From: Kiritimatiellia bacterium
GTDB taxonomy: Bacteria; Verrucomicrobiota; Kiritimatiellia; RFP12; UBA1067
DNA: 32,878 nt
Assembly: GCA_016284515.1 (NCBI GenBank)
Contig: JAEEOY010000150.1
Location: 1 to 32,878 of the forward strand
Direction of reading: 5' to 3'
Shown: one piece after another, positions 5,511 to 26,614 of the stretch
Layout of the letters: each line of letters starts with the position of its first letter
Numbering within the stretch: the stretch's first letter is position 1
Translations under genes and position numbers: made by a program
Notes under the pieces: model-generated
The model's database searches: none
The model's input: only the letters and a program-made list of their open reading frames with translations
Told to the model about the DNA's origin: nothing

Positions 5511-5531
5511 TTTTTTTGGTATAATATAGCC
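5511..5531 (+). promoter_or_regulatory. Extended -10 promoter, leaderless spacing
   Basis: A run of seven T is followed by GG-TATAAT, the hexamer at 5520-5525. The ATG stands at 5532, where transcription would start (7 nt after the last T of the box). No SD is present between box and ATG. Confidence 0.7.
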
Positions 5532-8500
5532 ATGAAAACGAAATTCCTCCGCTTCTGCGGCGCGATTGCGTCCGCAATTTCGCTCATTGCCGTGCCGGCG
5601 TCAGACGCGTCGGCGGAATCCGCCGCGTTCGTTTCGGGCGAGATCGCGGCCGAATACGAGACGGGTGCGGAGATTGCGCCTGTTGTGCTGTCCGTCGGCG
5701 GGCAGGCTCCGCTGACCGTGAGGGCGTCGGGACTTCCGTCTGGACTCAAGTTCACCGCGAAGGCGCTATCCGTGAAAGCGACAAGGACGACGCCCGCCCG
5801 CGAATACGAGGCGAACACGATCTACGGAATTCCGACGAGAAGCGGAATCTACAACGCGACCGTTTCCGTGACGGCGGCGGACAAGTCGAAGGCGTCGGAG
5901 GTGTTCAAGTTCGTCATTCGCAGGGAAGGTGAAAAAGTGATCGACCTCGTTGCTGGGGCCGAGGGATGCAAGGTTTCCGGAGCGGGCGTGTACCTTCCCG
6001 GGAAGAAGGTGTCGCTGAAGGCGACGGCGGCGCGTGGATACGTCTTCGCCGGATGGTATTCGGACGAGTCCTATTCGCAGCCGATCGACGGAAGCGCCGA
6101 CTTCCGCACTGCGTCGTATCCGTACGTCGTAGAAGACTCCGACGCGACATTCTACGCGAAGTTCATCCCGACGACCGACGACTGGGCGACTGTCGACGCG
6201 ACTGCCGAGGCCGAGTACGCGACTGGATCGGAGATCATTCCGATCGCGGTGGCGGCGGACGGAGGGAGCCTTCCGACGGCCAAGGTCGCTGGGCTGCCCT
6301 CGGGGTTGAAGTTCACGGCCAAGGAACTCGTCATCAAGGGACGCAACGGCACGGTGGAGCGCGAGTACGCGGCGAACACGATATACGGCACGCCGACGAA
6401 GAGCGGAATCTACAACGCGACGGTGACTGTCACCACTGCAGGAAAGGCAAAGGCGGAGAAGACCCTGAAATTCATAGTCCGCAAGGATGGCGAGATCATC
6501 CTCGATGCCGTCGCCTCCGCTCCTGGCTGCAAGACCGCCGGCGCCGGCGTGTACGCGGCAGGCAAGAAGGTGTCTCTTAGGGCGACTGCCGCACGCGGGT
6601 ACGTCTTCGCCGGATGGTACGCCGACTCGGGATTCTCGGTACCAGCCGAGACGCCGGTGGATTTCCGCACGGCGTCCATGTCGTACATCGCGCCAGAGTC
6701 CGACACGACGCTGTACGCAAAGTTCGTGGAGTCTTCCGAAGACGGCTCCATCGTGATCGACACGGCGGACTCGTATGCGTATTCCGACGCCGTTGACCTC
6801 AAGATCGGCGTCGAGTCGACGAGCCTTCCGAAGGTCACGGTCTCGACTCTTCCCGCTGGCCTCAAGTTCGATGCGTCGACGCTGACGATCAAGAAGGGCT
6901 CGGCGACTGTTCCGAAGCCCGGAACCTATCCGGTGACGGTAAAGGCGACGAACGCAACGGTGAAGAAGGCGGTGACGAAGACGTTCTCGATCATCGTGGA
7001 CAACTTCACGGACGCCAACGGGCTCTTCGTCGGCGGAATCGCCAATGGCCCAGGGGAGAAGTACGTCGCTACCGTCGGCGTGGAAGGAGGCGACCTGCCG
7101 TCGCTTGAGCTTCTGGACGAGACGATGAAGCTCAAGGTGTCCGGACTCCCCTCCGGCATGACGTACAACGCGTCCGAGAAGCGCATCGCCGGCGCGCCGT
7201 CCAAGGCGGGAACGTTCACCGTGACGCTCACGGTCGGGACGGCTGTCTCGACGTTCACGCTCGTCGTGGAGCCGCTTCCGGCGTGGCTCGTCGGCGACTT
7301 CGGATTCGAGCTCGACCTCACCGATGAAAGCGGCGCGACGAACCGCGTCACTTGGCAGGACATGACGGTGACTTCCGCCGGAAAGGTGAGCGGCAGGGGC
7401 AGGTGCTTCGCGCTCGCGAAGTCCGGCGACTGGACCGACGCGTGGCTCGGGAGCTGGACTGGACGCATCGTCTCGCGCTCCGGCGAGGGGAACTCCCTCA
7501 AGTTCGTCGTCCGCCGCGAGGTCGTGGCGAAGTCCGGCGACGCGACCGTAACATACGTTCTCAACCTCGAGGTGAAGCCCGAAGTCCTCAACGATGCCAC
7601 TGTGGCGTCGATCTCCGGAGCTCTCGAGCCCATTGACCACGGTATCACCGGCGGCGATGGCGACGGCATTGGCGCCGCAGTGTCCAACGGAGGCGCGAAC
7701 GTCTGGACGAAGGCCGCGGGCACCTCCGTAGCGCCGGCGTTCGAGTCCGGTCTGGCGATGAACCTGGACATCACGGCTCCGCAGACGAGGGTCTGGGATG
7801 CGAATGTGTCGTTCGAGTACGAGGGCACGCTGCACCTCGCGTTCGGGAAGTCCGGAAGCGTCACGTACTACTACGTATCGCCTGAGGACGGGTCCGTTTC
7901 CGGTACAGGAACGGCAACGCCCGTGCTCTCCAGCCAGACCGGCGGATCTGGCGGCGGCGGAATCATCGGCGGCGGCGATGCGCCCAAGCCCGCAGGCAAC
8001 GTCTGGCATTTCCCGGTCGTCTGCGCGCCGAAGGAGAGGACTCCGTTTGTCGCGATCGTTGAGATGAAGGCGTCCGCGGAGGAGAAGACCCTCTCCGCCG
8101 AAACGGTTGAGCTCTCCGTGCTGAAGATATGCGCCCGCGAGCGCGATCCGTACTGCGGCTGGGCCGCGGGAACGTTCTACGGCTACCATCTGCTGCGGAA
8201 CTTCGACAACGGAGGCGCCTCCGGCTACCACAGGGTCGTGAAGATCGCGCTTCCGAAGTCCGGCGGACTCACCATGTACGAAGTCGGCCTCGCGGGGACC
8301 GAGCGGATCACGCAGTACTACATGACGACGAACACCGTCGAGGCCGACGGCGCGCGGATGGAGTTCAACGCGTCCTTCAGCACGACGAAGAACTCGTACG
8401 GAAACAGCTCTGCTACAATCTCGCGGATATGGGAGACGCTCAGCAACGTGGTGGAGCGCGCGGAGCTCGATGGACTTGCGGTGGGGGTACTCGAGGGAGA

Positions 8501-9050
8501 CGGCAGGGGGCAGCTTGAGGGTTCGCATACATTCGACTCCCACATCTGCCTCGTGAAGTCGCCGTGGCTCGATGACAGGGCCGACGGAATCGTGCTTGGT
8601 TTCGCGGACACGAACACGTCCGTGTCGTGCGAGCTCAATCTCAACGAAGGCGGACTTGACGTCGGCTACACGTCCGTCACCGCTGCGCTCAACATCGCGT
8701 CCAACGGAGTCGTCGACGTGCGCTTCACTCCGGCAGGCGACGCGACGCTTCCAGGAGAGCTGTACGTGGACGCCGGGAACGGGACGCGCAGGAGGGTGCA
8801 GCCTCTCAAGTACTGCTCGTCGAGGCTTGTTCCGTACGAATTCGACGGTTCCGTCCTCAAGGCGTTCGTGACGGTCAGCGGTGCGATAAAGGGCAGGAGC
8901 GGCGTTCCGCGCGAGGAGCACGGCGCGTTCTTCTCCGCCGTCGTGAACCTCGAGATCCCGGTCGACGGCGAGGGCAGGGCGGACATTCCCGGCGCGACCT
9001 GCTCGCTGCTCGAGGCGCCGGTGGTGTATCCCGTGTACGTGACGCAGTGA
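5532..9050 (+). CDS. Secreted repeat protein with Ig-like (He_PIG) and InlB B-type repeats
   Basis: Of the 1172 residues, the first ~28 form a standard signal peptide (MKTKFLRFCGAIASAISLIAV..ASDASA). Two tandem units (about 33-215 and 220-395) each combine a putative Ig domain (LPSGLKFTAK, NTIYGxPTxSGIYNATV) with an InlB-B/Flg_new type repeat (AARGYVFAGWYxD, DxTxYAKF). Two more Ig-like domains follow (about 405-580, LPAGLKFDAS and LPSGMTYNAS). A beta-rich region (VGDFGFELDLTDESGA...) and a Gly-rich linker (GGSGGGGIIGGGD) lead to a second beta-rich C-terminal module starting near WAAGTFYGYH. No catalytic motif is recognised. A cell-surface adhesin or polymer-binding role is likely by domain content but unproven. 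The start is fixed by promoter spacing and signal peptide; translation is probably leaderless. Confidence 0.85.
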   Translation: MKTKFLRFCGAIASAISLIAVPASDASAESAAFVSGEIAAEYETGAEIAPVVLSVGGQAPLTVRASGLPSGLKFTAKALSVKATRTTPAREYEANTIYGIPTRSGIYNATVSVTAADKSKASEVFKFVIRREGEKVIDLVAGAEGCKVSGAGVYLPGKKVSLKATAARGYVFAGWYSDESYSQPIDGSADFRTASYPYVVEDSDATFYAKFIPTTDDWATVDATAEAEYATGSEIIPIAVAADGGSLPTAKVAGLPSGLKFTAKELVIKGRNGTVEREYAANTIYGTPTKSGIYNATVTVTTAGKAKAEKTLKFIVRKDGEIILDAVASAPGCKTAGAGVYAAGKKVSLRATAARGYVFAGWYADSGFSVPAETPVDFRTASMSYIAPESDTTLYAKFVESSEDGSIVIDTADSYAYSDAVDLKIGVESTSLPKVTVSTLPAGLKFDASTLTIKKGSATVPKPGTYPVTVKATNATVKKAVTKTFSIIVDNFTDANGLFVGGIANGPGEKYVATVGVEGGDLPSLELLDETMKLKVSGLPSGMTYNASEKRIAGAPSKAGTFTVTLTVGTAVSTFTLVVEPLPAWLVGDFGFELDLTDESGATNRVTWQDMTVTSAGKVSGRGRCFALAKSGDWTDAWLGSWTGRIVSRSGEGNSLKFVVRREVVAKSGDATVTYVLNLEVKPEVLNDATVASISGALEPIDHGITGGDGDGIGAAVSNGGANVWTKAAGTSVAPAFESGLAMNLDITAPQTRVWDANVSFEYEGTLHLAFGKSGSVTYYYVSPEDGSVSGTGTATPVLSSQTGGSGGGGIIGGGDAPKPAGNVWHFPVVCAPKERTPFVAIVEMKASAEEKTLSAETVELSVLKICARERDPYCGWAAGTFYGYHLLRNFDNGGASGYHRVVKIALPKSGGLTMYEVGLAGTERITQYYMTTNTVEADGARMEFNASFSTTKNSYGNSSATISRIWETLSNVVERAELDGLAVGVLEGDGRGQLEGSHTFDSHICLVKSPWLDDRADGIVLGFADTNTSVSCELNLNEGGLDVGYTSVTAALNIASNGVVDVRFTPAGDATLPGELYVDAGNGTRRRVQPLKYCSSRLVPYEFDGSVLKAFVTVSGAIKGRSGVPREEHGAFFSAVVNLEIPVDGEGRADIPGATCSLLEAPVVYPVYVTQ

Positions 9051-9122: not shown

Positions 9123-9154
9123 TTTTGGTATAATTGACGCAACCAAAGAGAGGA
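9123..9154 (+). promoter_or_regulatory. Extended -10 promoter and SD for the 760-aa gene
   Basis: TTTTGGTATAAT ends at 9134, predicting +1 near 9141. AGAGGAG (9148-9154) follows as SD, 10 nt before ATG 9165. The leader is about 24 nt. No -35 hexamer is recognisable. Confidence 0.7.
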
Positions 9155-9164
9155 GCCACAGCAC

Positions 9165-11447
9165 ATGTTCGTAATTGCATCGATTATAGCCGCGGCGCTC
9201 ACGCTGCCGCCGTTCGGCGAGGTAAAGGTGGTCGACGAGATCGACTGCACGAAGTCGGACCACCGGTTCGTCGACAGCCCGAAGGGCTCGAGCACGGTGG
9301 AGACGGTAGCAGGCAGGCAGTGCCGCGTCCTTCCCGTCCAGGGAGGGAAGTCGTCGTACCTCAACTGGCGCATAGGCGAGGGCAAGGGGCTCAAGCCGAA
9401 TGGCGCGTACGTTCTCGTGATCGAATATCCCGACGACAAGCCGCGCAGCTACTTTGTGCGCAACTACGGCAACAACTCGCGCCGTTCGTTCTACACGGGC
9501 GCGGCCACGGGCGATGCGTACGAGGGGCCGATCGTCCACCACAAGCCGGAGTCGCTCAAGATTCCGCAGAGCGGCGCGTACGAGAAGTGGACGGCCCTCT
9601 CGATACTCAGCGAGAAGGCGTCCAACCTGCGCGACCTCGATGCGAAGAAGTCGGAGGCCGCCGGAGTGAAGCAGTTCCTCGACATCGCGACGGAGGGCTT
9701 CGACGTCGTCGTCGGACAGTACCGCCGCGAGTGGAACCCCGCCTCGGAGGGCGTCGCCGTGTCGAAGATTCAGCTCTGCGAGATAGTCGACGAGAAGGCG
9801 GCGTGGGCGAACGTCAACCTGCCGCCGGCGCCGCTTCCGCGCCGCCACGTGTTCTGGCGCGAGGAGATGAGCGACGGACAGATGGACGCCCAGTGCAAGG
9901 GCAACGCGGGCGTTGACTGGTTCGAGCAGAAGTGCAGGGCGATGAAGTTCTTCGGGCAGAACACGTTCTGCAAGGACCTCCTGGAGTTCGGACACAACCA
10001 GCATTGGGACTGCAACTGGAAGCAGGGCAAGCCGGGCGGCAAGACGTGGAAGTGGATGTGGGGCACGAAGGGAGAGCTTGCGGACCTCTGGTCGAAGCTC
10101 GTTCCGATGGTCGTCGACAAGTACGGCTTCGACATCCTCCCGTACTACGAGTACGCCGGCGCGTCGGGCGATCCGTCCGAGTCGCTCGGTCCGCAGAAGA
10201 GGGCGGAGCCGCTCGACATGGACAACAAGCCCGACAGGGCCACGAAGGGCGCAAACTACACGCACATCTGGTGGACGGACGGCTCGCTTCGCGTCGACAT
10301 AACCGACCCCGACACGATCGAGGAGCTCAAGTACGTGCTCGAAGGCACGATCCTCCGCTACTCCGAGCAGGTCGCGAAGGGCGGCTTCGCCGGAGCCCTG
10401 ATGCGTCCGAGGCCCGGTCAGTGGGCCGTCGGATTCTCCGACAGGACGCGCGAGAGGTTTGCGAAGGAGGCGAACGGAGGCAAGAGCGTCTCGCGCGACG
10501 ACCTGAAGCGCGACAAGGCGCTCTACGAACGCTACATCGCGTGGTGGGGCGAGAAGCGCGCGAAGTTCATGGACGAGATTCGCAGGTATCTCGAGGAGAA
10601 CGGAGTCAAGAACGCTATGGCGATCCTCGAGAACGACGACAGCGAGACTGGACGCTTCCTCGCCGACGCTGACGGAATGGTAACCGACGATCCGGCCGCG
10701 TGGAAGGCGCGTCTGCCAGGCAAGAAGTTTACGGACATAAACGATCCGCGGCTCGTCAAGGACCATCTCTTCATGAAGTCGCTCAGGTCTCCTTCCGGAA
10801 CGTGGGGCCCGTGGGAATGGCAGCACGCCTCGCCCGCGTGCGATCCCGAGCACTACGCCGGGATGAAGAACGTCTGGATCGCGCTTCCGTTCCACGCGCT
10901 CTTCACGGTGACGGACCCCGCGTGCTTCTCCGCCTTCGGCAACGCGGACGGAACGGAGACGATCATCCGCCACTACGACCTCAACGAGGGCACGCTCGAC
11001 GATCTCGGATACGCGATGGCCGACTGGGAGCGCGCCGGAAGGGCGTGCATGCTCTCGGAGATCACCGCGGTCGCGAACGGCGATCCAGTGAACCTCGGCT
11101 ATCTCATGGGATCGAACTACACGCGCGGCTTCCCCGGTCCGGTGAGGGAGTTCAACCAGAACTTCCTCGCGCTTCCGGCCGTGAAGTCCACTGTCGTGAA
11201 GGGCGCGTGCTCCGATCCGGAAGTCGTCCTCCGCGAGATCGACTGTTCCGCGTTCGGCGTGAAGGCGAAGTACTACGCGCTTGTCCACACCGGGCTCGCC
11301 GAGAAGCATGACGTCGTCGTCAGGCTGCCGAAGGGAGCGAAGGACTCCGTGGAGTTCCTCGCGTACGGCAGGACGCGTCCGCTGAAGAACGGCGCGCTCG
11401 AGTTCAAGAAGCTCAAGCCGCTGCAGCTCATCGCCATCAGGCGCTGA
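9165..11447 (+). CDS. Secreted glycosidase-like protein of unrecognised family
   Basis: The product has 760 aa. It starts with a short hydrophobic segment (MFVIASIIAAALTLPP) that could be a minimal signal peptide, although it has no positive charge. The N-terminal ~200 residues look like a beta-sandwich (YVLVIEYPDDKPRSYFVRNYG). The central part (about 220-620) has the alternating helix/strand texture and aromatic-rich loops of a TIM-barrel hydrolase: FGHNQHWDCNW, DILPYYEYAGASGDPSESLG, THIWWTDGSLRVDITDPDTI, MAILENDDSETGRFLADADGMVTDDP. The last ~80 residues form a beta domain (VVVRLPKGAKDSVEFLAYGRTRPLKNG) like those ending many GH-A clan proteins. I cannot name the family or the catalytic residues. 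Its neighbours suggest work on plant or mucin glycans. Confidence 0.6.
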   Translation: MFVIASIIAAALTLPPFGEVKVVDEIDCTKSDHRFVDSPKGSSTVETVAGRQCRVLPVQGGKSSYLNWRIGEGKGLKPNGAYVLVIEYPDDKPRSYFVRNYGNNSRRSFYTGAATGDAYEGPIVHHKPESLKIPQSGAYEKWTALSILSEKASNLRDLDAKKSEAAGVKQFLDIATEGFDVVVGQYRREWNPASEGVAVSKIQLCEIVDEKAAWANVNLPPAPLPRRHVFWREEMSDGQMDAQCKGNAGVDWFEQKCRAMKFFGQNTFCKDLLEFGHNQHWDCNWKQGKPGGKTWKWMWGTKGELADLWSKLVPMVVDKYGFDILPYYEYAGASGDPSESLGPQKRAEPLDMDNKPDRATKGANYTHIWWTDGSLRVDITDPDTIEELKYVLEGTILRYSEQVAKGGFAGALMRPRPGQWAVGFSDRTRERFAKEANGGKSVSRDDLKRDKALYERYIAWWGEKRAKFMDEIRRYLEENGVKNAMAILENDDSETGRFLADADGMVTDDPAAWKARLPGKKFTDINDPRLVKDHLFMKSLRSPSGTWGPWEWQHASPACDPEHYAGMKNVWIALPFHALFTVTDPACFSAFGNADGTETIIRHYDLNEGTLDDLGYAMADWERAGRACMLSEITAVANGDPVNLGYLMGSNYTRGFPGPVREFNQNFLALPAVKSTVVKGACSDPEVVLREIDCSAFGVKAKYYALVHTGLAEKHDVVVRLPKGAKDSVEFLAYGRTRPLKNGALEFKKLKPLQLIAIRR

Positions 11448-11474: not shown

Positions 11475-11496
11475 TTTTTTTGGTACAATAGGGGGT
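11475..11496 (+). promoter_or_regulatory. Extended -10 promoter, leaderless spacing (sensor kinase)
   Basis: A run of seven T and then GG-TACAAT (hexamer 11484-11489) places +1 at about 11496, one base before ATG 11497. The AGGGGG between box and ATG lies upstream of the predicted +1, so it probably does not act as an SD. Confidence 0.65.
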
Positions 11497-12708
11497 ATGG
11501 AAGACATCTCCCATGAAAACGGGGCGCCCTGGCTGTCTGAAAAGGTGCTGAGGGCCGCGCCGGCAATTGCCGCCGCGGCCTTTGCCGTGCTTCTCGTCGC
11601 GTTTTACGCGAGCCTCATGGAGTACCGCGCCTCGATCGAGACGGACGCGCGGCGCGAGCTCGAGGCGCGCGCGGAACTTGCCGCGATGACGCTCGCCGAG
11701 CCGCTGCGCACGCAGGACTTCGCGAGCGTGCATGCGTTCGGAGAGTCGTGCCGCGCGATGGGCTACTACCTCTGCATCACGTCGTCCGCCGGCGGCAGGC
11801 TGTTCGCGAACTACCAGGGGGTCGGGCCGACGAAGGTCTCGATCCATGCGTTTGCCCATGCCGGGGAATACGACGTCATGCTCTTCCGCATGCGTGCCGA
11901 GGTGTTCGCGCCGTACCGCAAGGCGTATCGGCTCTTTCTCCTCGCCGCGCTTGCTGGCGCCGCCGGCATGTTCTTCTTCTTCTTCGCGTTCTACCGCCAG
12001 CGCGTGCGGCTGCGCGAACTCGCGCGCTCAGAGCGCTTCAGGCGCGAGTTCGTAGCGGACGTCTCGCACGAGATCAAGACTCCGCTCACCGGCATACTCG
12101 GCGCGGTCGAGATGCTTGGCGACGATCCGCCGGATCCCGCGGTGCGCGCGAGGCTCCTAGGGATGGTCGGCAAGGAGTCGAAGCGCCTCAACGCGCTCGT
12201 GCAGCAGATACTCGACCTCGCGCGCCTGGAGCGCGAGGGGGATGCGCTGGACCTCGCGGAAACTGACCTTGCGGACGTCGCGCGGGAGACTGTGGAGTCG
12301 ATGCGCGAGCGCGCCGAGGGTGCGGGCGTGCGGCTGGAACTGTCCGCAACGCCCGGTGAATGCGTGGCGAAGGTGGACGCGCGGCTTGTCGGCGAGGCGC
12401 TTGGAAACCTCGTCGCGAACGCGATAAGGCATTCCGGCTCGCCGACGGTCTCAGTGTCGGTGTCGCGCGCGGCGCGCGGCTTTTCGATTTCCGTCGAGGA
12501 TCACGGAACCGGAATTCCGCCAGAGCACGTGGAGCGCGTGTTCGAGCGCTTCCACCGCGTCGACCCTGCGCGCGCGGCGGAATCCGGCGGCGCGGGACTC
12601 GGACTTGCAATCGTGCGCCGCATCGCGCGCATGCACGGCGGCGAGGCGACGCTTGAGCCGGCGAAGCCGCACGGATGCCGTTTTTCGGTGCTCATTCCGG
12701 TCGCTTGA
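11497..12708 (+). CDS. Membrane sensor histidine kinase (orphan)
   Basis: The 403-aa protein has two membrane segments (about 20-41 and 147-166) around a ~105-residue extracytoplasmic sensor. All kinase boxes follow: H box SHEIKTPLTGI with phospho-acceptor His near 191, N box LGNLVANAIRHSG, G1 VEDHGTGIPPEH, F box FERFHRVD and G2 GGAGLGLAIVRRI. It would autophosphorylate at the His and pass the phosphate to a response regulator, in the manner of PhoR-type kinases; there is no HAMP domain. No response regulator lies beside it, so its partner must be encoded elsewhere. The sensor part shows no named fold that I recognise. Translation is likely leaderless. Confidence 0.9.
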   Translation: MEDISHENGAPWLSEKVLRAAPAIAAAAFAVLLVAFYASLMEYRASIETDARRELEARAELAAMTLAEPLRTQDFASVHAFGESCRAMGYYLCITSSAGGRLFANYQGVGPTKVSIHAFAHAGEYDVMLFRMRAEVFAPYRKAYRLFLLAALAGAAGMFFFFFAFYRQRVRLRELARSERFRREFVADVSHEIKTPLTGILGAVEMLGDDPPDPAVRARLLGMVGKESKRLNALVQQILDLARLEREGDALDLAETDLADVARETVESMRERAEGAGVRLELSATPGECVAKVDARLVGEALGNLVANAIRHSGSPTVSVSVSRAARGFSISVEDHGTGIPPEHVERVFERFHRVDPARAAESGGAGLGLAIVRRIARMHGGEATLEPAKPHGCRFSVLIPVA

Positions 12709-12732: not shown

Positions 12733-12759
12733 TGCTATACTATTTTGCCAAACGGAGAG
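12733..12759 (+). promoter_or_regulatory. Extended -10 promoter and SD for yggS
   Basis: TTGCTATACT (TGN plus TATACT at 12736-12741) predicts +1 near 12748. CGGAGAG (about 12753-12759) is the SD, 7 nt before ATG 12767. Confidence 0.6.
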
Positions 12760-12766
12760 TAGCAAG

Positions 12767-13582
12767 ATGAGAGAGTTTGGAGAGATACTTGAAGACGTTC
12801 GCGGCAGAATCGCCGCGGCGTGCAAACGCGCGGGGCGGAGCCCCGACGAGGTGGAGATCGTCGCCGTGACGAAGACGCACGGCGCGGAGGTCGTGAAGGA
12901 GGCGTGGGACGCAGGACTGACGATCGTCGGAGAGAACAAGGTGCAGGAGGCGGCGTGGAAGAAGCCGGCGAGCGTGTCGGGTCCGTCGTGGCACCTCATC
13001 GGGCACCTCCAGTCGAACAAGGTCCGCCACGCGCTCGAGCTGTTCGACTTCATCCATTCCGTCGACTCGGTGAAGCTCGCGGACAGGATAAACCTCATTG
13101 CGGACGAGACCGGCGCGTCCCCGCACATCCTTCTCGAGGTAAACGTCTCGGGGGAGAAGTCCAAGAGCGGGATGAAGCCCGAGGACGTCCGCTCGGCGGT
13201 CGAGCACATCGTCTCGGAGTGTCCGCGCGTCACGCTCGAGGGGCTTATGACGATGGCGCCTTTCAGCGAGAACCCGGAGGACGCGAGGCCGTACTTCCGC
13301 CGGCTGCGCGAGCTGCGCGACTCGCTCGAAAGCGAGCTCGGGGTCGGGCTCCCGAGGCTGTCGATGGGGATGAGCGGAGACTACGAGGTCGCCGTCGAAG
13401 AGGGCGCGACATGGGTGAGGCTCGGCACGGTGCTTTTCGGCGAGAGGCCGAAGGTGAAGCGCGTTGCGTCGTCAGACGGCGACGACGGGTCGACCCCGTG
13501 CGGTGATTCGGACACGTACGCGGGCTTCGGAGGGCTCGACTCCTATTCCGGAGCTGGTCCGACGGCGAAGATTCTCGACTGA
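12767..13582 (+). CDS. yggS: YggS/PLPBP-family pyridoxal-phosphate homeostasis protein
   Basis: The tracked ORF starts at 12605, inside the kinase gene. I place the start at ATG 12767 because an SD and promoter sit directly before it and MREFGEILEDVRGRIAAACKRAGR is the usual N-terminus. This gives 271 aa. Family marks are EIVAVTKTHGAEVVKEA (PLP lysine in VTKTH), GENKVQEA, WHLIGHLQSNKVRHAL, VNVSGEKSKSGM, GLMTMAPF, LSMGMSGDYEVAVEEGATWVRLGTVLFGER. The fold is a single alanine-racemase-like barrel that binds PLP and buffers its level; no enzymatic reaction is established for it. After GER the protein carries about 44 extra residues rich in Gly, Ser and Asp that the family normally lacks. Confidence 0.9.
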   Translation: MREFGEILEDVRGRIAAACKRAGRSPDEVEIVAVTKTHGAEVVKEAWDAGLTIVGENKVQEAAWKKPASVSGPSWHLIGHLQSNKVRHALELFDFIHSVDSVKLADRINLIADETGASPHILLEVNVSGEKSKSGMKPEDVRSAVEHIVSECPRVTLEGLMTMAPFSENPEDARPYFRRLRELRDSLESELGVGLPRLSMGMSGDYEVAVEEGATWVRLGTVLFGERPKVKRVASSDGDDGSTPCGDSDTYAGFGGLDSYSGAGPTAKILD

Positions 13583-13617: not shown

Positions 13618-13629
13618 ATTTGGTACAAT
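13618..13629 (+). promoter_or_regulatory. Extended -10 promoter of rnfC
   Basis: ATTTGGTACAAT, with the hexamer TACAAT at 13624-13629, predicts +1 near 13636 and a 72-nt leader before the chosen GTG at 13708, the longest leader in the window. Confidence 0.6.
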
Positions 13630-13707: not shown

Positions 13708-15090
13708 GTGAAAACAGTCAAGAGTCCATTCAAGTTCAAGGGCGGGGTTCATCCCGACTACAACAAGGAACTCGCGCGTGGCAAGGCCATCGAGACGATG
13801 CCTGTCCCGGCGGAGCTGGTCGTCTCGATGAGCCAGCACCTCGGCGCGCCGGCGAAGTGCGTCGTGAAGGCGGGCGACTATGTCGCGAAGGGACAGCTCC
13901 TCGGCGAGAAGAACGGCTTCATATCGGTGCCGGTGTACGCTTCGGCGGCAGGGCTCGTAAAGTCGGTCGAGCCGCGTCTCGGCCCGGCCGGCGGCAAGGC
14001 GCTCGCAGTCGTGATCGACACGACCGCTCCCGCGCCCGAGGGCTTTGACGCCTCCGAGTGCACGCTCCCCCCGCTCGACTGGAAGACCGCGACGAAAGAG
14101 GAGCTCCTCGCGCGCGTCAACGACGCGGGAATCTGCGGAATGGGCGGCGCGGGCTTTCCAACGTGCGTGAAGCTCAATCCCCCGCCCGGCAAGCGCTGCG
14201 AATACCTCATCCTCAACGGTGCGGAGTGCGAGCCGTACCTCTGCGCCGACCACCATCTCATGCTCGAGCGGGCGGACCGCGTCCGCCTCGGCGTTGAGAT
14301 CATGCGCAAGGTGCTCGGCATGCCCGCCGTCAGGATCGCGATCGAGGCGAACAAGCCGGACGCGATAGCGGCGATGGAGAAGGCTTTCGCCGACATCGAC
14401 GGCAACGTCGAGATAGTCGTGCTTCCGGTGCTGTATCCGCAGGGCAGCGAAAAGCACCAGATCTTCGCTACTGTCGGACGCGTCGTGCCCGAGCCGCCGG
14501 CGCTGCCGATCGACGTCGGATGCGTCGTCGAGAACGTCGGCACGGTCGCCGCGATAGCGGACGCGGTGGAGAAGGGGCACATCCTCCTCTCGCGCGTCAC
14601 GACGGTTTCGGGCGATGCCGTCGCCGAGCCGAAGAACGTCGAGGCGCCGCTCGGGACGAAGTACGCGGACCTCATCGCGTTCTGCGGAGGCGAGAAGGGA
14701 CATGTCGCCAAGCTGATCTCCGGCGGAACGATGATGGGCTTCGCCGTGTCGACGGCCGAGATCGCGACGACCAAGACGACCTCGGGTCTGCTGCTCCTTT
14801 CTGACAGCCGTGTCTTCCAGTACAGCTCGCAGGCATGCATAAACTGCGGCAGGTGCGTGAGGGCGTGTCCGATGAACCTGAACGCCGCGGAGATCGCAAA
14901 GGCGGTCGAGGCGGACGACATAAAGGCCGCGGAGGACGCGCATGTGATGACGTGCATCGAGTGCGGTGCGTGCAGCTTCAGCTGCCCCGCGTACCGTCCG
15001 ATAACCCAGTTCTGCCGCCGCGCGAAGAACTCGATCCGCGCGCGCATCGCCGCGGAGAAGGCGAAGGCCGCAGCGGCCGCGGGGAAATAG
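13708..15090 (+). CDS. rnfC: Electron transport complex subunit RnfC
   Basis: I chose GTG 13708 (AAGG 9 nt upstream) over the tracked GTG 13681, because V-KTVKSPFKFKGGVHP matches the usual RnfC start; this gives 460 aa. The family marks are FKGGVHPDYNKE, the N-terminal barrel (CVVKAGDYVAKGQLLGE), the flavin/NADH-binding GMGGAGFPTCVKL and LILNGAECEPYLCADHHLM, and two [4Fe-4S] motifs near the C-terminus (CINCGRCVRACP, CIECGACSFSCP). RnfC is the peripheral NADH- and ferredoxin-side subunit of the Rnf complex, which couples electron flow between ferredoxin and NAD to Na+ or H+ transport. rnfD follows after a repeat-filled 90-nt gap; the other subunits do not. Confidence 0.92.
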   Translation: MKTVKSPFKFKGGVHPDYNKELARGKAIETMPVPAELVVSMSQHLGAPAKCVVKAGDYVAKGQLLGEKNGFISVPVYASAAGLVKSVEPRLGPAGGKALAVVIDTTAPAPEGFDASECTLPPLDWKTATKEELLARVNDAGICGMGGAGFPTCVKLNPPPGKRCEYLILNGAECEPYLCADHHLMLERADRVRLGVEIMRKVLGMPAVRIAIEANKPDAIAAMEKAFADIDGNVEIVVLPVLYPQGSEKHQIFATVGRVVPEPPALPIDVGCVVENVGTVAAIADAVEKGHILLSRVTTVSGDAVAEPKNVEAPLGTKYADLIAFCGGEKGHVAKLISGGTMMGFAVSTAEIATTKTTSGLLLLSDSRVFQYSSQACINCGRCVRACPMNLNAAEIAKAVEADDIKAAEDAHVMTCIECGACSFSCPAYRPITQFCRRAKNSIRARIAAEKAKAAAAAGK

Positions 15091-15168
15091 TTAGGTGGTT
15101 AGGTAGTTGGGTAGTTAGGTGGTTATTAGGTAGTTGGGTAGTTAGGTGGTTGGATAGTTAGGTGGTTT
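15088..15168 (+). repeat. Octamer tandem repeat (T-R-GTT-R-GG) between rnfC and rnfD
   Basis: About ten head-to-tail units of TAGTTAGG, TGGTTAGG, TAGTTGGG and similar fill the intergenic space. The rnfC stop TAG (15088-15090) is the first three bases of the array. A longer 26-nt block, beginning TTAGGTAGTTGGG, occurs twice (15099-15124 and 15126-15151). The plus strand has many spaced GG pairs and almost no C, so a two-tier G-quadruplex is possible in DNA or mRNA. The array ends just before the rnfD SD (AAGGAG, 15169-15174). Confidence 0.9.
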
Positions 15169-15180
15169 AAGGAGAAAACG

Positions 15181-16182
15181 ATGAAGCCAAAGGAGACAGC
15201 AGAGCATTTCATTCTGAGTTCGAGTCCGCACGCGCACGCTAACTCGAGCGTGTCGCGCATCATGCTAGACGTGATAATCGCGCTTCTTCCGACGACGGCG
15301 ATGGGCATCTTCTTCTTCGGGATGCCGGCGGTCTGGACGATTGCGACATGCGTCGCGACGTGCGTCCTCACCGAGGCGCTCTGCCGCATGGCGATGAAGC
15401 GCGAGTCGACGGTAGGCGACCTTTCGGCCGTCGTCACGGGACTTCTCCTCGCGCTGAACCTCCCGGCGGGGATTCCGCTCTGGATGGCCGTCGTCGGTTC
15501 GGTGTTCGCGATAGGCGTCGCCAAGCAGGTCTTCGGCGGGCTCGGGATGAATCCGTTCAACCCGGCTCTCGCAGCGCGCGCGTTCATGCTCATCTCGTTT
15601 ACGGGTCCGATGACAACGTGGCTCAAGCCGTTCTGGTGGCGCACTCCCGACGCGATGACTACGGCGACGCCGCTCGCCTCGATGAAGACGATGTTTGCCG
15701 CCGAGGCGGCGACAACGGCGTCTCCGCACGGACTGTGCAGCGCCGCCACGGGAGGCCTGGAGGGCATCTGGAACCTCGCCATCGGCAACGTCCCCGGATG
15801 CATCGGCGAGGTGTCGGCGATCGCGCTCGCGATCGGCGCTGCGTACCTGCTCGTGCGCAAGGTGATCACGTGGCACATCCCGGTGTCGTTCATCGCGACG
15901 GTGTTCGTCTACTCGCTCATTGCGGGCGGAGCGCCGGCGATGGCGCAGGTCTTGGCGGGCGGCGTGATGATCGGCGCGTGCTTCATGGCGACGGACTACG
16001 TGACCTCTCCGACCACGGCGAAGGGCAAGCTCGTGTTCGGCTTCGGGTGCGGACTCCTCTGCATGCTGATCCGCCAGTTCGGCGGATATCCCGAGGGATG
16101 CTCGTTCGCGATTCTCATCATGAACGCCGTCTGTCCGCTCATCAACCGCTTCACCCAGCCGAAGCCCTTCGGAGCCAAGTGA
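15181..16182 (+). CDS. rnfD: Electron transport complex subunit RnfD
   Basis: The 333-aa integral membrane protein has an SD AAGGAG 6 nt before ATG. Hydrophobic helices run through the whole length (VIIALLPTTAMGIFFFGMPAVW, AVVTGLLLALNLPAGIPLWMAVV, VSFIATVFVYSLIAGGAPAM). GGLGMNPFNPALAARAF is the RnfD/NqrB signature. DAMTTATPLASMK corresponds to the S/T-x-A-T site where FMN is covalently bound through a Thr phosphoester. With RnfC it would form part of the Rnf pump. Normally rnfG, E, A and B follow; here the next gene is a helicase. Confidence 0.92.
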   Translation: MKPKETAEHFILSSSPHAHANSSVSRIMLDVIIALLPTTAMGIFFFGMPAVWTIATCVATCVLTEALCRMAMKRESTVGDLSAVVTGLLLALNLPAGIPLWMAVVGSVFAIGVAKQVFGGLGMNPFNPALAARAFMLISFTGPMTTWLKPFWWRTPDAMTTATPLASMKTMFAAEAATTASPHGLCSAATGGLEGIWNLAIGNVPGCIGEVSAIALAIGAAYLLVRKVITWHIPVSFIATVFVYSLIAGGAPAMAQVLAGGVMIGACFMATDYVTSPTTAKGKLVFGFGCGLLCMLIRQFGGYPEGCSFAILIMNAVCPLINRFTQPKPFGAK

Positions 16183-18490: not shown

Positions 18491-21400
18491 CTACGGGCGA
18501 ACCTCAGCCCACTTCGCGTCAAGGCGCTTCTCGCTCACCGGAATCGCCGCACGCACCTCAGGCGCGAACACCGAGACGCGGAACTCCTCCACCATCCAGC
18601 GGTATTCCGCGAGCGCTTCGCGGTCGATCTTCGCGTCCTTCGAGACGATTGCCTCGCGGTAGCGCTCCCAGAAGGGCGCGACGCGCAATTCCTTCGCGCG
18701 GTCTCCCGACGGATTCGACCTCGCGCGGTCTACGCGCACCGCGATCGCCTTCATGTAGCGCGCGTAGTGGCGAAGCCGCTCCGGGGAGACGGCGCGCAGA
18801 AAGCCCGGGAACACGAGCCACGCGAGCTGGGTGTCTATAGAGTCGGCGACGTCTTCCGCCGCGTTCGAGCGTGCGAGCGCGTCCGAGCAGTTCGCTGCGG
18901 CGTCCAGCGCGGACGCGAACAGCGCCTCGATCTCCGCCTTCGCCGCGGCAAATGCGCCGCGCCGGTCCTTGAGTCGCGACTCGAATTCGTCCTTGTCGCG
19001 CACGGTGGGAAGTCCGTCGACCATCGACGACCTTACGGCCGACCAAAGTATGTCCGAGCCGATGCGCTCGGAGTCGTATCCGATTGACTTCAGGTACAGC
19101 GCCGCGCCGAGCGAGAGGCGCTTCGTCTGGAACGTCGGGCGCGACTTGCCCGCGATCCTGATGCACATCAGCCGCGCGACGCCCGCCGCGTGCGAGCGCG
19201 CGGCCTCGGCGGCCGACTTGAAGAGACGCACGACAACGCCGTCGCCGCAGTCCGAGAGCGCGGGGTAGTGCGCGAGCGTCCAGTCGCCGCTGCGCGACTC
19301 GACCTGCTCCGCGACTGCACCGAAATCCCAGTCGACGTGCTTCGCCGCTTCGCCCTGGAGGGGCTTTCGGCCGGACGACGCACCTGCCGCGGCGAGGGCT
19401 TCGTCGAGGCTGCGGGTGTCGGCGATGATGCGGCCGTCTTCGTCCTTGATCCTGTAGCGGACTATCAGATGCGGCGGATACTTCACGTTGGCCCACGCGC
19501 TCTCTGGGACTATGATTCCGTTGTGGTCGCGCAGCAGCTTCCTGAGCGCGTCGGCGAGCGGCGTGTCGTCCGGACGGAGAAGCGGCGCGAGAATCGAGAC
19601 TGTGTCCGAGATCGGCGAGACGACGCGCCGCAGCGATGAGGGAAGCGAGCTGAGCAGGAACGCTAGTTTCTCCGGGAGCGCGCCTGGAACGAGCCAGTCG
19701 GCGTTCCACAGCGCGAGCGCGCCGGCGTCCGCCTTCGCGACGGTGCACGTTATGCCGTCCGTCGCAGGATCGTCCGGCGTGTGGCGGTACGAGAGCGCGA
19801 GTCGGGCCTGGCCGATGCGGAGCGAGTCTGGGAACGCCGAGTTGGAGGTGCCGACCTTCGGGAGCCATTTGCGCCTGTCGAGCCTGAAGCGCGACTTCTC
19901 CTCGTCCGTTGCGGACCAGAGCCACTTCGCAAGGTCGCGCGCCGAGACTATCTCTGGCGGAACCGCGGCGTCGAAGTGAGCGGCGAGCGCGTCTTCGTCG
20001 AAGAGCTCAGGACGCCTCATGCGCTCCGCGCGGCGGAGCATCTCGGCGATGACGGACGAGTTCTCGCGCACTTCGCGCGGGGGATGTGGGAACTCGCGCC
20101 GGACGAGTCCGCAGAGGATGAAGAGCCTTCGCGACACGACGGGGTCGATTCTGCTGTAGTCGCGGCGCCGCGCCGGGACGATGACGAGTCCGTAGAGCGT
20201 CACCTGCTCCGTCGCGCGGACGAATCCGTTCGCCGCGTCCCACTCCGGCTCGCGGTAGCTGCGCTTCACCACGTCGGCGGCGATGGACTCGATCCAGCGC
20301 ACGTCTATGACTGCGGCGTTGCGCGCGAAGAGGCGGGAGGTGTCGACAAGTTCGCCTGCGACGATCCATTCGGGAGCGTGGTTTACGGTCCGCTGTTCGT
20401 GGTTTGCGGGGCGTGGCGCGCGAGTCTTCTTCGTCAGGACCGAGCTTGGATGCAGGGCGAAGCGAAGGGCGTGTGCGCCGCGGTAGTCGTGTTCCTCGGG
20501 ATCGAGGTGTCCGATGCGCGAGAGGAGCCCCGTCATGAGCGCTCGGTGGAGCGAGTCAGGCCCGCCGTTGTCGCTCTCCACGTCGAGTCCGAGGCGCTTC
20601 GACAGTTCCGCGAGCTGACGCGACAGGTCGCGCCATTCGCGCATCTTCGGATACGAAAGGTACGTCTTCTTCGCGAGCTTGCGCAGCTGCGACTGCGAGA
20701 GCGTCTTCGTCTGGTCGTCCCACCAGTTCCAGAGCGCGAGCGTTCCGAGGAAGTCGGAGCCCGGACGCCTGAACTGCGCATGCGCCTGGTCCGCCTTCTC
20801 GCGCTCCTCCACCGGACGCCGCTTCGGGTCGTCGCAGCTCATCGCGGCGACGACGGGGATTGCGGAGGGGAGCGTCGCGAATTCGGAGGCGGCGATGAGC
20901 ATGCGCGCGAGGCGCGGCTCAACGGGGATGCGCGCGAGGCGGCGTCCCGTTTTCGTGAGCGCGATGTCGTGTTCGGCGTCGTGCTGTATCGCGCCGAGTT
21001 CGAGGAGCTCCTTGAGTCCTTCGCGCACCATCGCCGGTTTCGGAGGGTCGATGAACGGAAATTCCTCGATGTTGCCGAGGCCAAGGTCGAGCATCGTGAG
21101 GATGACGCCGGCGAGCGAAGAGCGAAGGACTTCCGGCGGAGTGTACTTCTCGCGCGATTCGAAGTCCTCCTCCGAGTAGAGACGCACGCACGTGCCGGGT
21201 CCGAGCCTTCCGCACCTTCCCGCGCGCTGCTTCGCCGAGGCCTGCGAGACGGGCTCGATCTGCAGGCGCTGCACCTGTGTGCGGTGGATGTAGCGCGAGA
21301 TGCGCGCGAGGCCGGAGTCTATGACTGCGCGGATTCCAGGAATAGTCACCGAGGTCTCCGCGACGTTCGTCGCGAGGACGACGCGGCGGCGCGGCGAGAG

Positions 21401-22228
21401 GCGGAACGCGCGCTGCTGCTCGCCGGAGGGCAGGGACGCGAGAAGGGGGATGATGTCGTCCGCGGCGAAGGAGGGCGTGTGGCGCAGGTGGTCGGCCGTC
21501 TCGCGGATGTCTCGCTCGCCAGGGAGGAACACCAGCACGTCGTCCTTCGGCGGGAGTGTCGCGAGCGCGGCGGTTACGTCGCGCGCGAGGTCGCGCTCCT
21601 CGCGGTCCGGCGGCTCCATGTACCGCACCTCGATGGGGAAGAGCCTTCCAGGGACCGATATCGCCGGCGCGCCGTTGAAGAATGCGGAGAAGCGCTCGGA
21701 GTCGAGCGTCGCGGAGGAGACGATCACCTTCAGGTCGCGGCGTTTCGCGAGGATGCGCTTGAGGATGCCGAGGAGGAAGTCGACGTTGAGCGTGCGCTCG
21801 TGCGCTTCGTCGACGATGATCGCGTCGTAGGCGCGGAGGAGGGGATCTGCGCGCGTCTCGGCGAGAAGGACTCCGTCGGTCATGAACTTGACGCGGGTGG
21901 AGTCGGAGAGTTTTCTCGCGAACCTGTGCTGGTATCCGACGGTCGCGCCGACCTCGCATCCGAGCTCCTCGGCGACGCGTTCCGCGACGGTGACGGCGGC
22001 GAGTCGGCGAGGCTGGGTGCAGGCGATGCGGCGCCCGTGCGCGCCGAGTCCGAGCTCCATAGCCATCTTCGGCAGCTGCGTCGTTTTCCCCGAGCCGGTG
22101 TCGCCGCAGACGATAACGGCCTGGCTGCGGCGGAGCGCGTCCATGATCTCCGCGCGGTGCGCTGAGATCGGCAGCTCCTCCGGGTATCGCAGCGTGATTC
22201 CGCCGTCTTCTCTCTCGGTCTCCGTCAT
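18491..22228 (-). CDS. hrpA: ATP-dependent RNA helicase HrpA (DEAH/RHA family)
   Basis: The tracked ORF begins at 22423, but the promoter at 22238-22248 lies inside that extension. The start is therefore ATG 22228 (MTETEREDGG), giving 1245 aa, close to the family's ~1300. The motifs are Walker A GDTGSGKTTQLPK, DEAH in IIVDEAHERTLNVDFLLG, IVSSATLDSERF (motif III), NVAETSVTIPGI and QRAGRCGRLGPGTC (motif VI). HA2/OB domains follow, then a long C-terminal DUF3418-type region specific to HrpA. E. coli HrpA handles RNA processing and rescues stalled or collided ribosomes. It is divergently transcribed from the beta-propeller gene across a 184-bp spacer, and its mRNA is probably leaderless. Confidence 0.93.
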   Translation of the reverse strand: MTETEREDGGITLRYPEELPISAHRAEIMDALRRSQAVIVCGDTGSGKTTQLPKMAMELGLGAHGRRIACTQPRRLAAVTVAERVAEELGCEVGATVGYQHRFARKLSDSTRVKFMTDGVLLAETRADPLLRAYDAIIVDEAHERTLNVDFLLGILKRILAKRRDLKVIVSSATLDSERFSAFFNGAPAISVPGRLFPIEVRYMEPPDREERDLARDVTAALATLPPKDDVLVFLPGERDIRETADHLRHTPSFAADDIIPLLASLPSGEQQRAFRLSPRRRVVLATNVAETSVTIPGIRAVIDSGLARISRYIHRTQVQRLQIEPVSQASAKQRAGRCGRLGPGTCVRLYSEEDFESREKYTPPEVLRSSLAGVILTMLDLGLGNIEEFPFIDPPKPAMVREGLKELLELGAIQHDAEHDIALTKTGRRLARIPVEPRLARMLIAASEFATLPSAIPVVAAMSCDDPKRRPVEEREKADQAHAQFRRPGSDFLGTLALWNWWDDQTKTLSQSQLRKLAKKTYLSYPKMREWRDLSRQLAELSKRLGLDVESDNGGPDSLHRALMTGLLSRIGHLDPEEHDYRGAHALRFALHPSSVLTKKTRAPRPANHEQRTVNHAPEWIVAGELVDTSRLFARNAAVIDVRWIESIAADVVKRSYREPEWDAANGFVRATEQVTLYGLVIVPARRRDYSRIDPVVSRRLFILCGLVRREFPHPPREVRENSSVIAEMLRRAERMRRPELFDEDALAAHFDAAVPPEIVSARDLAKWLWSATDEEKSRFRLDRRKWLPKVGTSNSAFPDSLRIGQARLALSYRHTPDDPATDGITCTVAKADAGALALWNADWLVPGALPEKLAFLLSSLPSSLRRVVSPISDTVSILAPLLRPDDTPLADALRKLLRDHNGIIVPESAWANVKYPPHLIVRYRIKDEDGRIIADTRSLDEALAAAGASSGRKPLQGEAAKHVDWDFGAVAEQVESRSGDWTLAHYPALSDCGDGVVVRLFKSAAEAARSHAAGVARLMCIRIAGKSRPTFQTKRLSLGAALYLKSIGYDSERIGSDILWSAVRSSMVDGLPTVRDKDEFESRLKDRRGAFAAAKAEIEALFASALDAAANCSDALARSNAAEDVADSIDTQLAWLVFPGFLRAVSPERLRHYARYMKAIAVRVDRARSNPSGDRAKELRVAPFWERYREAIVSKDAKIDREALAEYRWMVEEFRVSVFAPEVRAAIPVSEKRLDAKWAEVRP

Positions 22229-22237
22229 ATGGCGGAT

Positions 22238-22248
22238 ATTATACCAAA
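22238..22248 (-). promoter_or_regulatory. Extended -10 promoter of hrpA, near-leaderless
   Basis: On the minus strand TTTGGTATAAT ends at 22238, predicting +1 near 22231, 3 nt before the ATG at 22228. No SD is available in such a leader. Confidence 0.7.
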
Positions 22249-22412: not shown

Positions 22413-24785
22413 ATGAGACACATCAGACTCGCCGCGTTCGTTTCTCTTGCCGCCGTGATTTCGGCGACGCAGACGCTTTTCTCCGAAACCGAGGGGAGGC
22501 GCTGGACCGCCTGCGGATGGGGCGGAGGCGGATGGTTCTGGAGCTCCGCGGCCGATCCGCTTGATCCCGACGTGTTCTACATGGGCGGTGACGTGGACGG
22601 CGTGTGGAAGACTGTCGACGGAGGCGAGAGCTGGCTTTTCGCGAACAGGGGGCTGTCAAACTACGCGGTCTACTCGCTCGCCGTCGCGCCGTCCAACGGA
22701 GACAGGGTCTACGCACTCACCGGGAACGGAGTGTGCGCGTCGTCCGACGGCGCGGCGCACTGGACGCACTGCGCGGCGACGAAGGGCCTCGGAATCATCG
22801 CCGGACGCGACGGATCGGTCCACGCAATCGCGGTCGATCCGAGCAATCCCGACGTTGTATACGCGGGAGGCAAGAACGGGAAGGCCGCGAAGTCGACGGA
22901 CGGCGGCACGAGCTGGAAGACGATGTCGTATGGCGGCGAGTCCGGCGGGGCGGTCTGCACAATCGCTGTCTCTGGTCGCGATCCGCGCACCGTGCTCCTG
23001 TGCAGCAGGAACGGCGGACTCTACCGTTCCGTTGACGCGGGCTCGTCGTGGTCGCGCGTATCCTCCGCTCCGTCGTCCGCGCGCGCCGTCTTCTGGGCGG
23101 GACCTGCCGCCCCGCGGAAATGGTACGGCGCGTTTGGCGCGGACGCGGTGCATGTCTCGCAGGACGACGGCGCGACGTGGGCGAAGCTCGGCGAGTCGTC
23201 TTCCTACGAGTGCCGCGACGTGGTGTGCAGCGCCGTGGATCCGCTCGTCGTGCACGCGCTGTTCGCGAGCGGATACAGCACTTTCATATCCACCTCGCGC
23301 GACGGCGGCGGGAGCTGGACGCGCAGCTGGAACTTCGCGTACGACCACGCGGCGAATCCGACGCTGCCGGGACAGGGCGCGAACGGAAGCTTCAGCGGAC
23401 TCAAGAACCTTTCGATAAGCCCGGCGGATCCCGACCGCATCCACGCGCCCGGGAACTGGAACCCGGTGATGTCGCACGACGGCGGGAGGACTTGGCGCGA
23501 GAGCTGCAGTGGTGCGGACATCTCGTGCCACCACGATCTGCAGTTCCTCGGGTCGGACGTCTACACCGCGACGATGGACGAGGGCACGCTGCGCACGTCC
23601 GACCGCGGCGCGACGTGGAGCGGACTCTGTCCGACGGTGTGGAAGGCGGGGCTTAGCGGACACCACTGGCGCGTGATCGCGCAGCGCCTCGCGAACGGAA
23701 ACACGCGCGTCGTTTCGTCCGTCTCTCCGTGGGCGAACGCGGGGATCACCTATCCGGTCAAGGTCGTGTGGAGCGAGGACGGAGGCCGCACCTTCACCGA
23801 GGCGACCGGCCTGCCCGACTACCGTCCTACCGCCAACACGATGTGGGGTGAAGGACACGGAAGGGCCATGGCGGCCGATTCCAACAATCCCGACGTCATC
23901 TATCTCGGCATCGACGCTGATCCGACGCAGGGCAGGTGCGGCGGAGGCGTGTTCAGGTCGACGGACGGAGGAAAGTCCTTCTCGCAGCTTCCGAACCAGC
24001 CCGCGTCGCGCCGCATGTTCTACGGCCTTGCGGTTGATCCGACGAATTCGAAACGCATCGTGTGGGGTGCGTGCGGAGACAACTCGGGAGTCTACGTCTC
24101 GAACGACGCAGGCGCGAGCTGGCAGAAGAAGTCTTGGATCGGAGACTGGATCTACAACGTCGAGATAACGCCTTCCGGTACGATATACGCGTCCGGCGGA
24201 AGCCTCTACCGCAGCACGGACCACGGCGAGAACTTCGCGGTCGCGGGTTCGTTCTCGGGCGGCACGGTGCTTGGCATCGCCGTCGATCCCGCGGACGAGC
24301 GGCGCGTATGGGTATCCGTCGCGCCTTGGTCTGACGATGCGACGGGAGGGATATACGAGACGACGGACGGATGTCGCACCTGGCGCGAGATATCTGGCGA
24401 CATTGGCTTCATCCAGCCGCGCGTGTTGCGGTACGATCCAGAGGGGCACGAACTGTGGGCCGCGGGAAACGGACTGTTCCGGACGAAGGTCGACGGCGTT
24501 GAAAGCGTCGACGGCATAGCGGAAGACGCCGTGGAGCGTCCGGTGATAGGGGGACTGGATGCTGCGTCCGGAGCGATCTCCGTCGCGAACGCGGAAAAGG
24601 ACGTGTCCTACGCCGTCTACGCGTGCGAACTGCTCGGCGGGGATTTCTCGCCCGCTGGCAGGCGGGTTCGGGCGAAGTCGGACGGGGCGCTCGAGCTAGG
24701 GATAGAAGTGTCCGCGCTTCCTCCGTCCATGTTCTTCAAGGTCGTCGCGTTCCCGCCCGAGACCACCGGCATCCTGCACAGGTGA
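22413..24785 (+). CDS. Secreted Asp-box (BNR) beta-propeller protein, GH74/sortilin-like
   Basis: ATG 22413 has an SD and begins a signal peptide (MRHIRLAAFVSLAAVISATQTLFS); the tracked GTG 22368 coincides with the predicted +1 and is rejected. The product is 790 aa. About twelve Asp-box motifs (S/T-x-D-x-G-x-x-W/F) are visible, among them TVDGGESW, STDGGTSW, SVDAGSSW, SQDDGATW, SRDGGGSW, SHDGGRTW, STDGGKSF and SNDAGASW. The order and the opening (WFWSSAADPLDPDVFYMGGDVDGVWKT) resemble the double seven-bladed propeller of GH74 xyloglucanases and related exo-alpha-sialidase-like proteins. Which residues are catalytic cannot be judged. A ~85-residue C-terminal beta domain follows. A role in plant or mucin glycan breakdown is inferred from context. 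Confidence 0.8.
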   Translation: MRHIRLAAFVSLAAVISATQTLFSETEGRRWTACGWGGGGWFWSSAADPLDPDVFYMGGDVDGVWKTVDGGESWLFANRGLSNYAVYSLAVAPSNGDRVYALTGNGVCASSDGAAHWTHCAATKGLGIIAGRDGSVHAIAVDPSNPDVVYAGGKNGKAAKSTDGGTSWKTMSYGGESGGAVCTIAVSGRDPRTVLLCSRNGGLYRSVDAGSSWSRVSSAPSSARAVFWAGPAAPRKWYGAFGADAVHVSQDDGATWAKLGESSSYECRDVVCSAVDPLVVHALFASGYSTFISTSRDGGGSWTRSWNFAYDHAANPTLPGQGANGSFSGLKNLSISPADPDRIHAPGNWNPVMSHDGGRTWRESCSGADISCHHDLQFLGSDVYTATMDEGTLRTSDRGATWSGLCPTVWKAGLSGHHWRVIAQRLANGNTRVVSSVSPWANAGITYPVKVVWSEDGGRTFTEATGLPDYRPTANTMWGEGHGRAMAADSNNPDVIYLGIDADPTQGRCGGGVFRSTDGGKSFSQLPNQPASRRMFYGLAVDPTNSKRIVWGACGDNSGVYVSNDAGASWQKKSWIGDWIYNVEITPSGTIYASGGSLYRSTDHGENFAVAGSFSGGTVLGIAVDPADERRVWVSVAPWSDDATGGIYETTDGCRTWREISGDIGFIQPRVLRYDPEGHELWAAGNGLFRTKVDGVESVDGIAEDAVERPVIGGLDAASGAISVANAEKDVSYAVYACELLGGDFSPAGRRVRAKSDGALELGIEVSALPPSMFFKVVAFPPETTGILHR

Positions 24786-24845: not shown

Positions 24846-24883
24846 TGGTAGAATATTGGAAAACAACAATCCAACAAAAGGAG
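24846..24883 (+). promoter_or_regulatory. Extended -10 promoter and SD of the SPFH gene
   Basis: TGGTAGAAT (hexamer 24849-24854) predicts +1 near 24861. AAAGGAG, ending about 24883, lies 7 nt before ATG 24891. Confidence 0.6.
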
Positions 24884-26570: not shown

Positions 26571-26614
26571 TGGTATAATATTCGTCCGATTGCAAACATT
26601 TTCAAATTGAAAGG
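26571..26614 (+). promoter_or_regulatory. Extended -10 promoter and SD of the carB operon
   Basis: TGGTATAAT (hexamer 26574-26579) predicts +1 near 26586. GAAAGG (up to 26614) is the SD, 9 nt before ATG 26624. Confidence 0.65.

Follow-up and report, generated by a model that had tools for sequence, protein, structure and literature searches.

The window analysed here, a stretch of 32,878 nucleotides, spans all of contig C107 in the MAG of a rumen member of the Kiritimatiellae (Verrucomicrobiota) whose genome comprises 3.86 Mb in 292 contigs at ~62% GC. The assignment comes from the CarB protein, which shows 99% identity to RUG673, catalogued as 'uncultured Lentisphaerae bacterium', and 83% to Kiritimatiellae RGIG9934. 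Three of its genes have start codons that stand almost directly behind an extended -10 box. The first, on the plus strand at 5532..9050, encodes a protein of 1172 aa in which Pfam recognises He_PIG (Ig-like) and InlB B-repeat domains, and is preceded by the box TGGTATAAT at 5517..5525, itself directly preceded by TTTTTT; the gap (throughout, the number of nucleotides separating the start codon from the final T of the box) is 6, which places the predicted +1 on or beside the A of the ATG at 5532. The second, a histidine kinase gene on the plus strand (11497..12708; Pfam HisKA and HATPase_c), has the box TGGTACAAT at 11481..11489, with a gap of 7 to the ATG at 11497. The third, an hrpA-type helicase gene on the minus strand (18491..22228; Pfam DEAD and DUF3418), has TGGTATAAT at 22238..22246, with a gap of 9 to the ATG at 22228 and a probable +1 lying 2 nt before that ATG. 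All three are predicted to be leaderless: as the original prediction had stated, no Shine-Dalgarno (SD) site precedes any of them, and a start call blind to the upstream sequence chose the same ATG in each case. In congeners the histidine kinase gene seems to start before the preceding response-regulator-like gene has ended (L295-L302), and the promoter of 11497 is therefore not comparable across relatives; in the window that neighbour is absent and the kinase gene has its own box-adjacent start.

The same kind of box is found on the plus strand at greater distances from the starts of predicted leadered genes: TGGTATAAT at 9126..9134 (gap 30 to the gene at 9165, SD GAGGAG), TGCTATACT at 12733..12741 (gap 25 to the gene at 12767, SD GGAG), TGGTACAAT at 13621..13629 (78 nt upstream of the GTG at 13708 that opens an RnfC-type gene (Pfam), with an SD-like AAGG), TGGTAGAAT at 24846..24854 (gap 36 to the gene at 24891 for an SPFH/Band 7 protein (Pfam), SD AAGGAG) and TGGTATAAT at 26571..26579 (gap 44 to carB at 26624, SD AAAGG). 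The genes at 22413 and 30715 have a plain TATAAT at gaps of 50 and 32, respectively, each with an SD. Every box and start listed in the original prediction was re-read and found in place, and the longer leaders it described each carry an SD or SD-like site. Allowing at most one mismatch, TGNTATAAT occurs 13 times in the window against 1.9 expected, a number reached in none of 100 shuffles; only four of these copies are perfect, the remainder having one mismatch. The two sites proposed to lie inside the IS are weak, the one at 589-597 being TGGTAAAAT within the transposase ORF and the one at 1895-1903 lying past the end of that ORF. Imperfect repeats of the type 'ggtagttgggtagttaggtggtt' lie at 15100-15180, directly before the gene at 15181.

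Across the whole genome TTTGGTATAAT occurs 177 times, and the reversed pattern not once. Detailed box statistics were compiled from 80 stretches totalling 1.2 Mb, with genes called by a simple caller that uses codon usage only and is blind to upstream sequence. There, 211 copies of TGNTATAAT had enough flanking sequence, and 203 of them fall outside called genes, though non-coding DNA makes up only 18% of the sequence. At gaps of 2 to 12 after the box, ATG was counted 1, 1, 1, 2, 32, 24, 22, 24, 10, 6 and 2 times, a distribution on which the partly motif-guided choice of contigs has no effect: ATG peaks at gaps 6-10 with a sharp lower edge at 6, and there is hardly any peak, or none, for GTG and TTG. 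A +1 about 7 nt downstream of a -10 box requires a lower edge at 6 nt, and the sharp edge found is the spacing that would be expected if transcription begins on the A of the ATG. The base before the ATG is a pyrimidine in 30 of 31 cases at gap 6 and in 21 of 24 at gap 7. Genome-wide, then, the box is strongly concentrated 6-9 nt before ATG, as had been anticipated, and its distribution breaks off abruptly below 6 nt; the observation behind the original prediction is confirmed, and its interpretation is supported. An unguided ranking of 6-mers upstream of first genes also placed TATAAT, GGTATA and TTTGGT at the top, with AAAGGA next.

An ATG follows at a gap of 5-11 behind 116 boxes, and 92 of these 116 ATGs open a called gene. 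The upstream-blind start coincides with the box ATG in 64 of the 92 genes and deviates from it in the other 28, no other offset being seen more than three times. Standard gene finders had been expected to miss or mis-start genes that have no SD; even this caller, which uses codon usage only, placed those 64 starts exactly. At the protein level, the N-termini of a random sample of ten predicted leaderless genes were compared with NCBIfam profiles. Read from the box ATG, residues 1-195 of V-ATPase subunit D align with profile positions 1-206, residues 2-393 of SMC with 1-393, residues 4-215 of RNase III with 3-217, and residues 4-690 of EF-G with 6-686; PDB homologues broadly agree with the box-ATG starts (one query lacked the initial Met). 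The 64 coinciding upstream-blind starts and the four N-terminal fits indicate that the adjacent ATG is the true protein start, and since SMC, EF-G, RNase III and V-ATPase subunit D are among the genes that fit, essential genes appear to use the predicted leaderless mode. Within a set of 19 of the 116 box ATGs, about a dozen open only ORFs of 2-29 codons that were not called as genes; such very short box-adjacent ORFs could be leaderless leader peptides, or could have arisen by chance.

How much of the genome is organized in this way can be estimated from the same sample, in which TGNTATAAT lies at gap 5-11 before 67 of 705 well-scored genes (~10%) and TGNTANNNT at gap 5-11 before 45 of 272 putative first genes (~17%), shares that the inclusion of contigs picked for bearing the motif may inflate. 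The suggestion that many mRNAs are leaderless is supported with the qualification that, by these predicted shares, such genes are a minority. Start codons of box-adjacent genes are ATG in 64 cases and GTG in 4, and those of operon-internal genes are ATG in 174, GTG in 50 and TTG in 3. Operon-internal genes have SD-like signals in 60% of cases versus 25% in a control stretch, and the genome therefore appears to be mixed, with about 10% of genes leaderless and many others led by an SD. Boxes without a near ATG mostly lie 20-110 nt upstream of a gene. An SD was found in 41 of 63 leadered genes (those with the box 14-99 nt away) versus none of the 116 box-adjacent cases, the latter figure being partly by construction because the box leaves little room.

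The pooled boxes have the consensus W-T-W-TGG-TATAAT: W-T-W stands directly before the TG, with T at 87% in its middle position, and the n position of TGn favours G (63%). When TATAAT was sought at gaps 6-9 before starts called from coding sequence only, TGN preceded it in 58 of 60 cases. The upstream T-rich run proposed from the window survives as a short W-T-W element (~3 nt), which is typical, the longer stretches of T seen at 5532 and 11497 being atypical; the description of the boxes as lacking a -35 was too strong, as pooling the boxes reveals a weak TTG-like -35 with a spacer of 18 nt. Extended -10 sigma-70 promoters of E. coli and Bacillus (TGn, TRTGn) have the TG one base before TATAAT and a short T-rich element upstream, and the boxes described here share the features of that class: a TG upstream of the hexamer, a weak -35, and a sigma-70 that keeps its TG-contact residues. 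Unlike in E. coli and Bacillus, G is favoured at n, and leaderless starts are often associated with the box.

A single protein with sigma-70 region 3 was found in the genome, and its residues contacting the -10, the TG and the -35 are the same as those of E. coli. PVHMIE is conserved across all aligned sigma-70 sequences; it includes the counterparts of E. coli His455 and Glu458, by which sigma-70 contacts the TG. Altered promoter-contact residues were considered as a cause, and none was found in the alignment. Loss of S1 or of the anti-SD was likewise rejected as an explanation of leaderless genes: S1 is present as a complete, multi-domain protein in a 586-aa frame, and the 16S 3' tail of a congener (G203), GGATCACCTCCTTT, has an intact anti-SD, this genome's own 16S not having been found. 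Nothing in these sequences suggests impaired SD initiation.

The distribution of the architecture was surveyed by counting TGGTATAAT-N6-10-ATG in 240 genomes of the phylum. Outside the window's family, counts are near background in nearly all genomes (mostly 0-5 per genome, the exceptions being a related family, f2, with 1-15, and a few isolated genomes), unlike in the carriers within the family. Among the 57 genomes of the family that were sampled, 32 are carriers (11-179 occurrences each, sum 2303) and 25 are non-carriers (0-11 each, sum 56), the latter including genus g138, which reaches up to 11 without a near-ATG excess. At a control gap of 26-30 the sums are 975 for carriers and 50 for non-carriers; the near/far ratio is 2.4 in carriers versus 1.1 in non-carriers, and the near-ATG excess is therefore specific to carriers. 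In a genus without the trait (G101, 65% GC) neither TATAAT nor TANNNT peaks before genes, and no degenerate TANNNT version was seen in 400 kb of the sister genus g3. The hrpA gene itself is box-adjacent in some genomes of genus g2, with an ATG at gap 7 in G284 and a GTG at gap 6 in G267. On a tree of the HrpA protein, all 11 carriers included (carrier genera g4, g136, g137 and g140 were left out) form one side of a branch supported at 100/100, consistent with a single change on the tree; the architecture appears to have been gained within the family, or lost in a sister lineage, about once.

The carriers also differ from their relatives in sigma-70 itself. At position 510 (E. coli numbering), 27 of 27 carriers (loci L325-L350 and L200) have Lys, and E. 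coli and 17 of 17 others (L351-L354, L191-L199, L201, L204, L209 and L210) have Pro; in carriers, 514 (Asn/Ser) and 519 (Tyr) are almost invariant as well. All three lie in or beside the region 3.2 finger, which one study implicates in template pre-organisation, initiation pausing and promoter escape (PMC12445709). A lineage-specific change in this finger, Pro510 to Lys, might accordingly be supposed to shift start-site choice and so to drive the architecture, a proposal that the fixed differences of the carrier clade favour and that we nevertheless consider improbable. The carriers are one clade, so that any clade-specific change co-segregates with the trait, and further fixed differences are present at 473, 480, 493 and N-terminal positions; as the trait changed once on the tree, its link with Lys510 amounts to one coincidence, and cause is unproven. 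Moreover G077, which belongs to another family and has Pro510, has a modest surplus of near ATGs (15 at gap 6-10 versus 3 at gap 22-26), and Lys510 is therefore not required. The fuller scenario, in which one change in one Kiritimatiellae family rewired promoters genome-wide (the finger substitution Pro510 to Lys, with 514 and 519, altering start-site choice or initial transcription, and leaderless mRNAs becoming standard even for essential genes), seems to us unlikely to the same degree. In another family of the order (G107, G136 and G195; L201, L209 and L210), the sigma-70 frames are much longer, with C-terminal extensions of at least 80 residues past region 4.

By far the most probable explanation, in our view, is that the box serves as the -10 element in normal housekeeping sigma-70 promoters, which are of the extended type. 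The box, its spacing, the start codons, the lack of room for an SD and the distribution within the family are read directly from the sequence; we infer the relative strengths of the elements, of which the TG contact and the near-consensus Pribnow box would probably carry most of the recognition, assisted by the weak TTG-like -35 ~18 nt upstream. Judging from the spacing, RNA polymerase would start ~7-9 nt past the box, preferably at a pyrimidine-A step. Where an ATG lies 6-10 nt past the box, the transcript would begin ~0-3 nt before the AUG, and this 5'-terminal AUG would presumably be recognised directly by 70S ribosomes or by ribosomes loaded with initiator tRNA; where the ATG is further off, the mRNA made from the same box would have a leader, in most cases with an ordinary SD.

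One might instead read the box as a translation signal (a non-SD ribosome-binding element or an A/T-rich S1 element), with transcription starting further upstream; it does occupy the location of an SD, has no SD beside it, and S1 is present. We regard this as very unlikely, as the identical box with its W-T-W-TG extension is also found 20-110 nt from starts that have an SD of their own, the 6-nt lower edge and the pyrimidine before the ATG at gaps 6-7 are as at a transcription start, and the weak -35 stands at the right spacer; in Deinococcus, an SD put in place of the corresponding box abolished expression (PMC12340547). That the box is part of some dispersed repeat or mobile element inserting before genes, its spacing reflecting insertion and not promoter function, would fit its high copy number and clade restriction and is still less credible, given that conservation is limited to the box (positions beyond about -4 and past the start site are variable) and that the spacer from box to ATG is constant neither in sequence nor in length.

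With the box taken as an extended -10 element, the architecture is of a type already known from Deinococcus, Actinobacteria and Akkermansia; what is new is the lineage, with a sharp boundary inside one family. In Deinococcus-Thermus, a -10 motif adjacent to ORFs is associated with leaderless mRNAs, and reporter mutations show that it acts as a promoter (PMC12340547). As here, some Deinococcus genes have the box ~6-7 nt before the start codon and others have an SD; there, however, the motif is TANNNT (often TACACT) and precedes nearly one-third of genes, whereas here it is a near-consensus TATAAT with an upstream TG, preceding ~10% of genes and almost only ATG. The genes described here also resemble the TA-led genes of Zheng et al. 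2011 (PMC3160421), in which TANNNT/TATAAT stands ~10-12 bp before the translation start: the box is found at that distance above chance and with no SD between (partly forced by the lack of room), which would place them in the same class. TG was noted there in several low-GC genomes, unlike the GC-rich (~62%) genome with a strong TG found here, and the text of that paper has no mention of Verrucomicrobi*, Lentisphaer*, Chlamydi* or Planctomycet*. In Akkermansia muciniphila, of the same phylum, Cappable-seq mapped 10% of TSSs to annotated start codons, a leaderless share similar to our estimate, with 5' ends measured there and inferred here (PMC4782308); the pyrimidine before the ATG agrees with the pyrimidine-purine rule for initiators that the same study reports from gut bacteria. 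The present case differs from the known ones in its near-consensus extended box in a GC-rich genome and in its near-exclusive use of ATG. No description of such an architecture in Kiritimatiellae was found in the open-access literature searched (which omits most subscription journals), where Kiritimatiellae and 'leaderless' occurred together only in a survey of anti-SD tails (PMC10783764).

Taken together, a TTTGG-TATAAT box 6-10 nt before the start codon probably marks roughly a tenth of the genes, essential ones among them, as read from an mRNA that starts at or within a few nucleotides of the start codon, and the same probably holds in one branch of the family. Few phyla have had their leaderless expression mapped, and here the box is close enough to consensus to be legible from sequence alone in a GC-rich, uncultured gut lineage, including before smc, fusA and rnc; it helps to fix gene starts and promoters in unculturable MAGs. 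Present in some genera of one family and absent from others, the trait offers a natural comparison for why genomes adopt leaderless genes.
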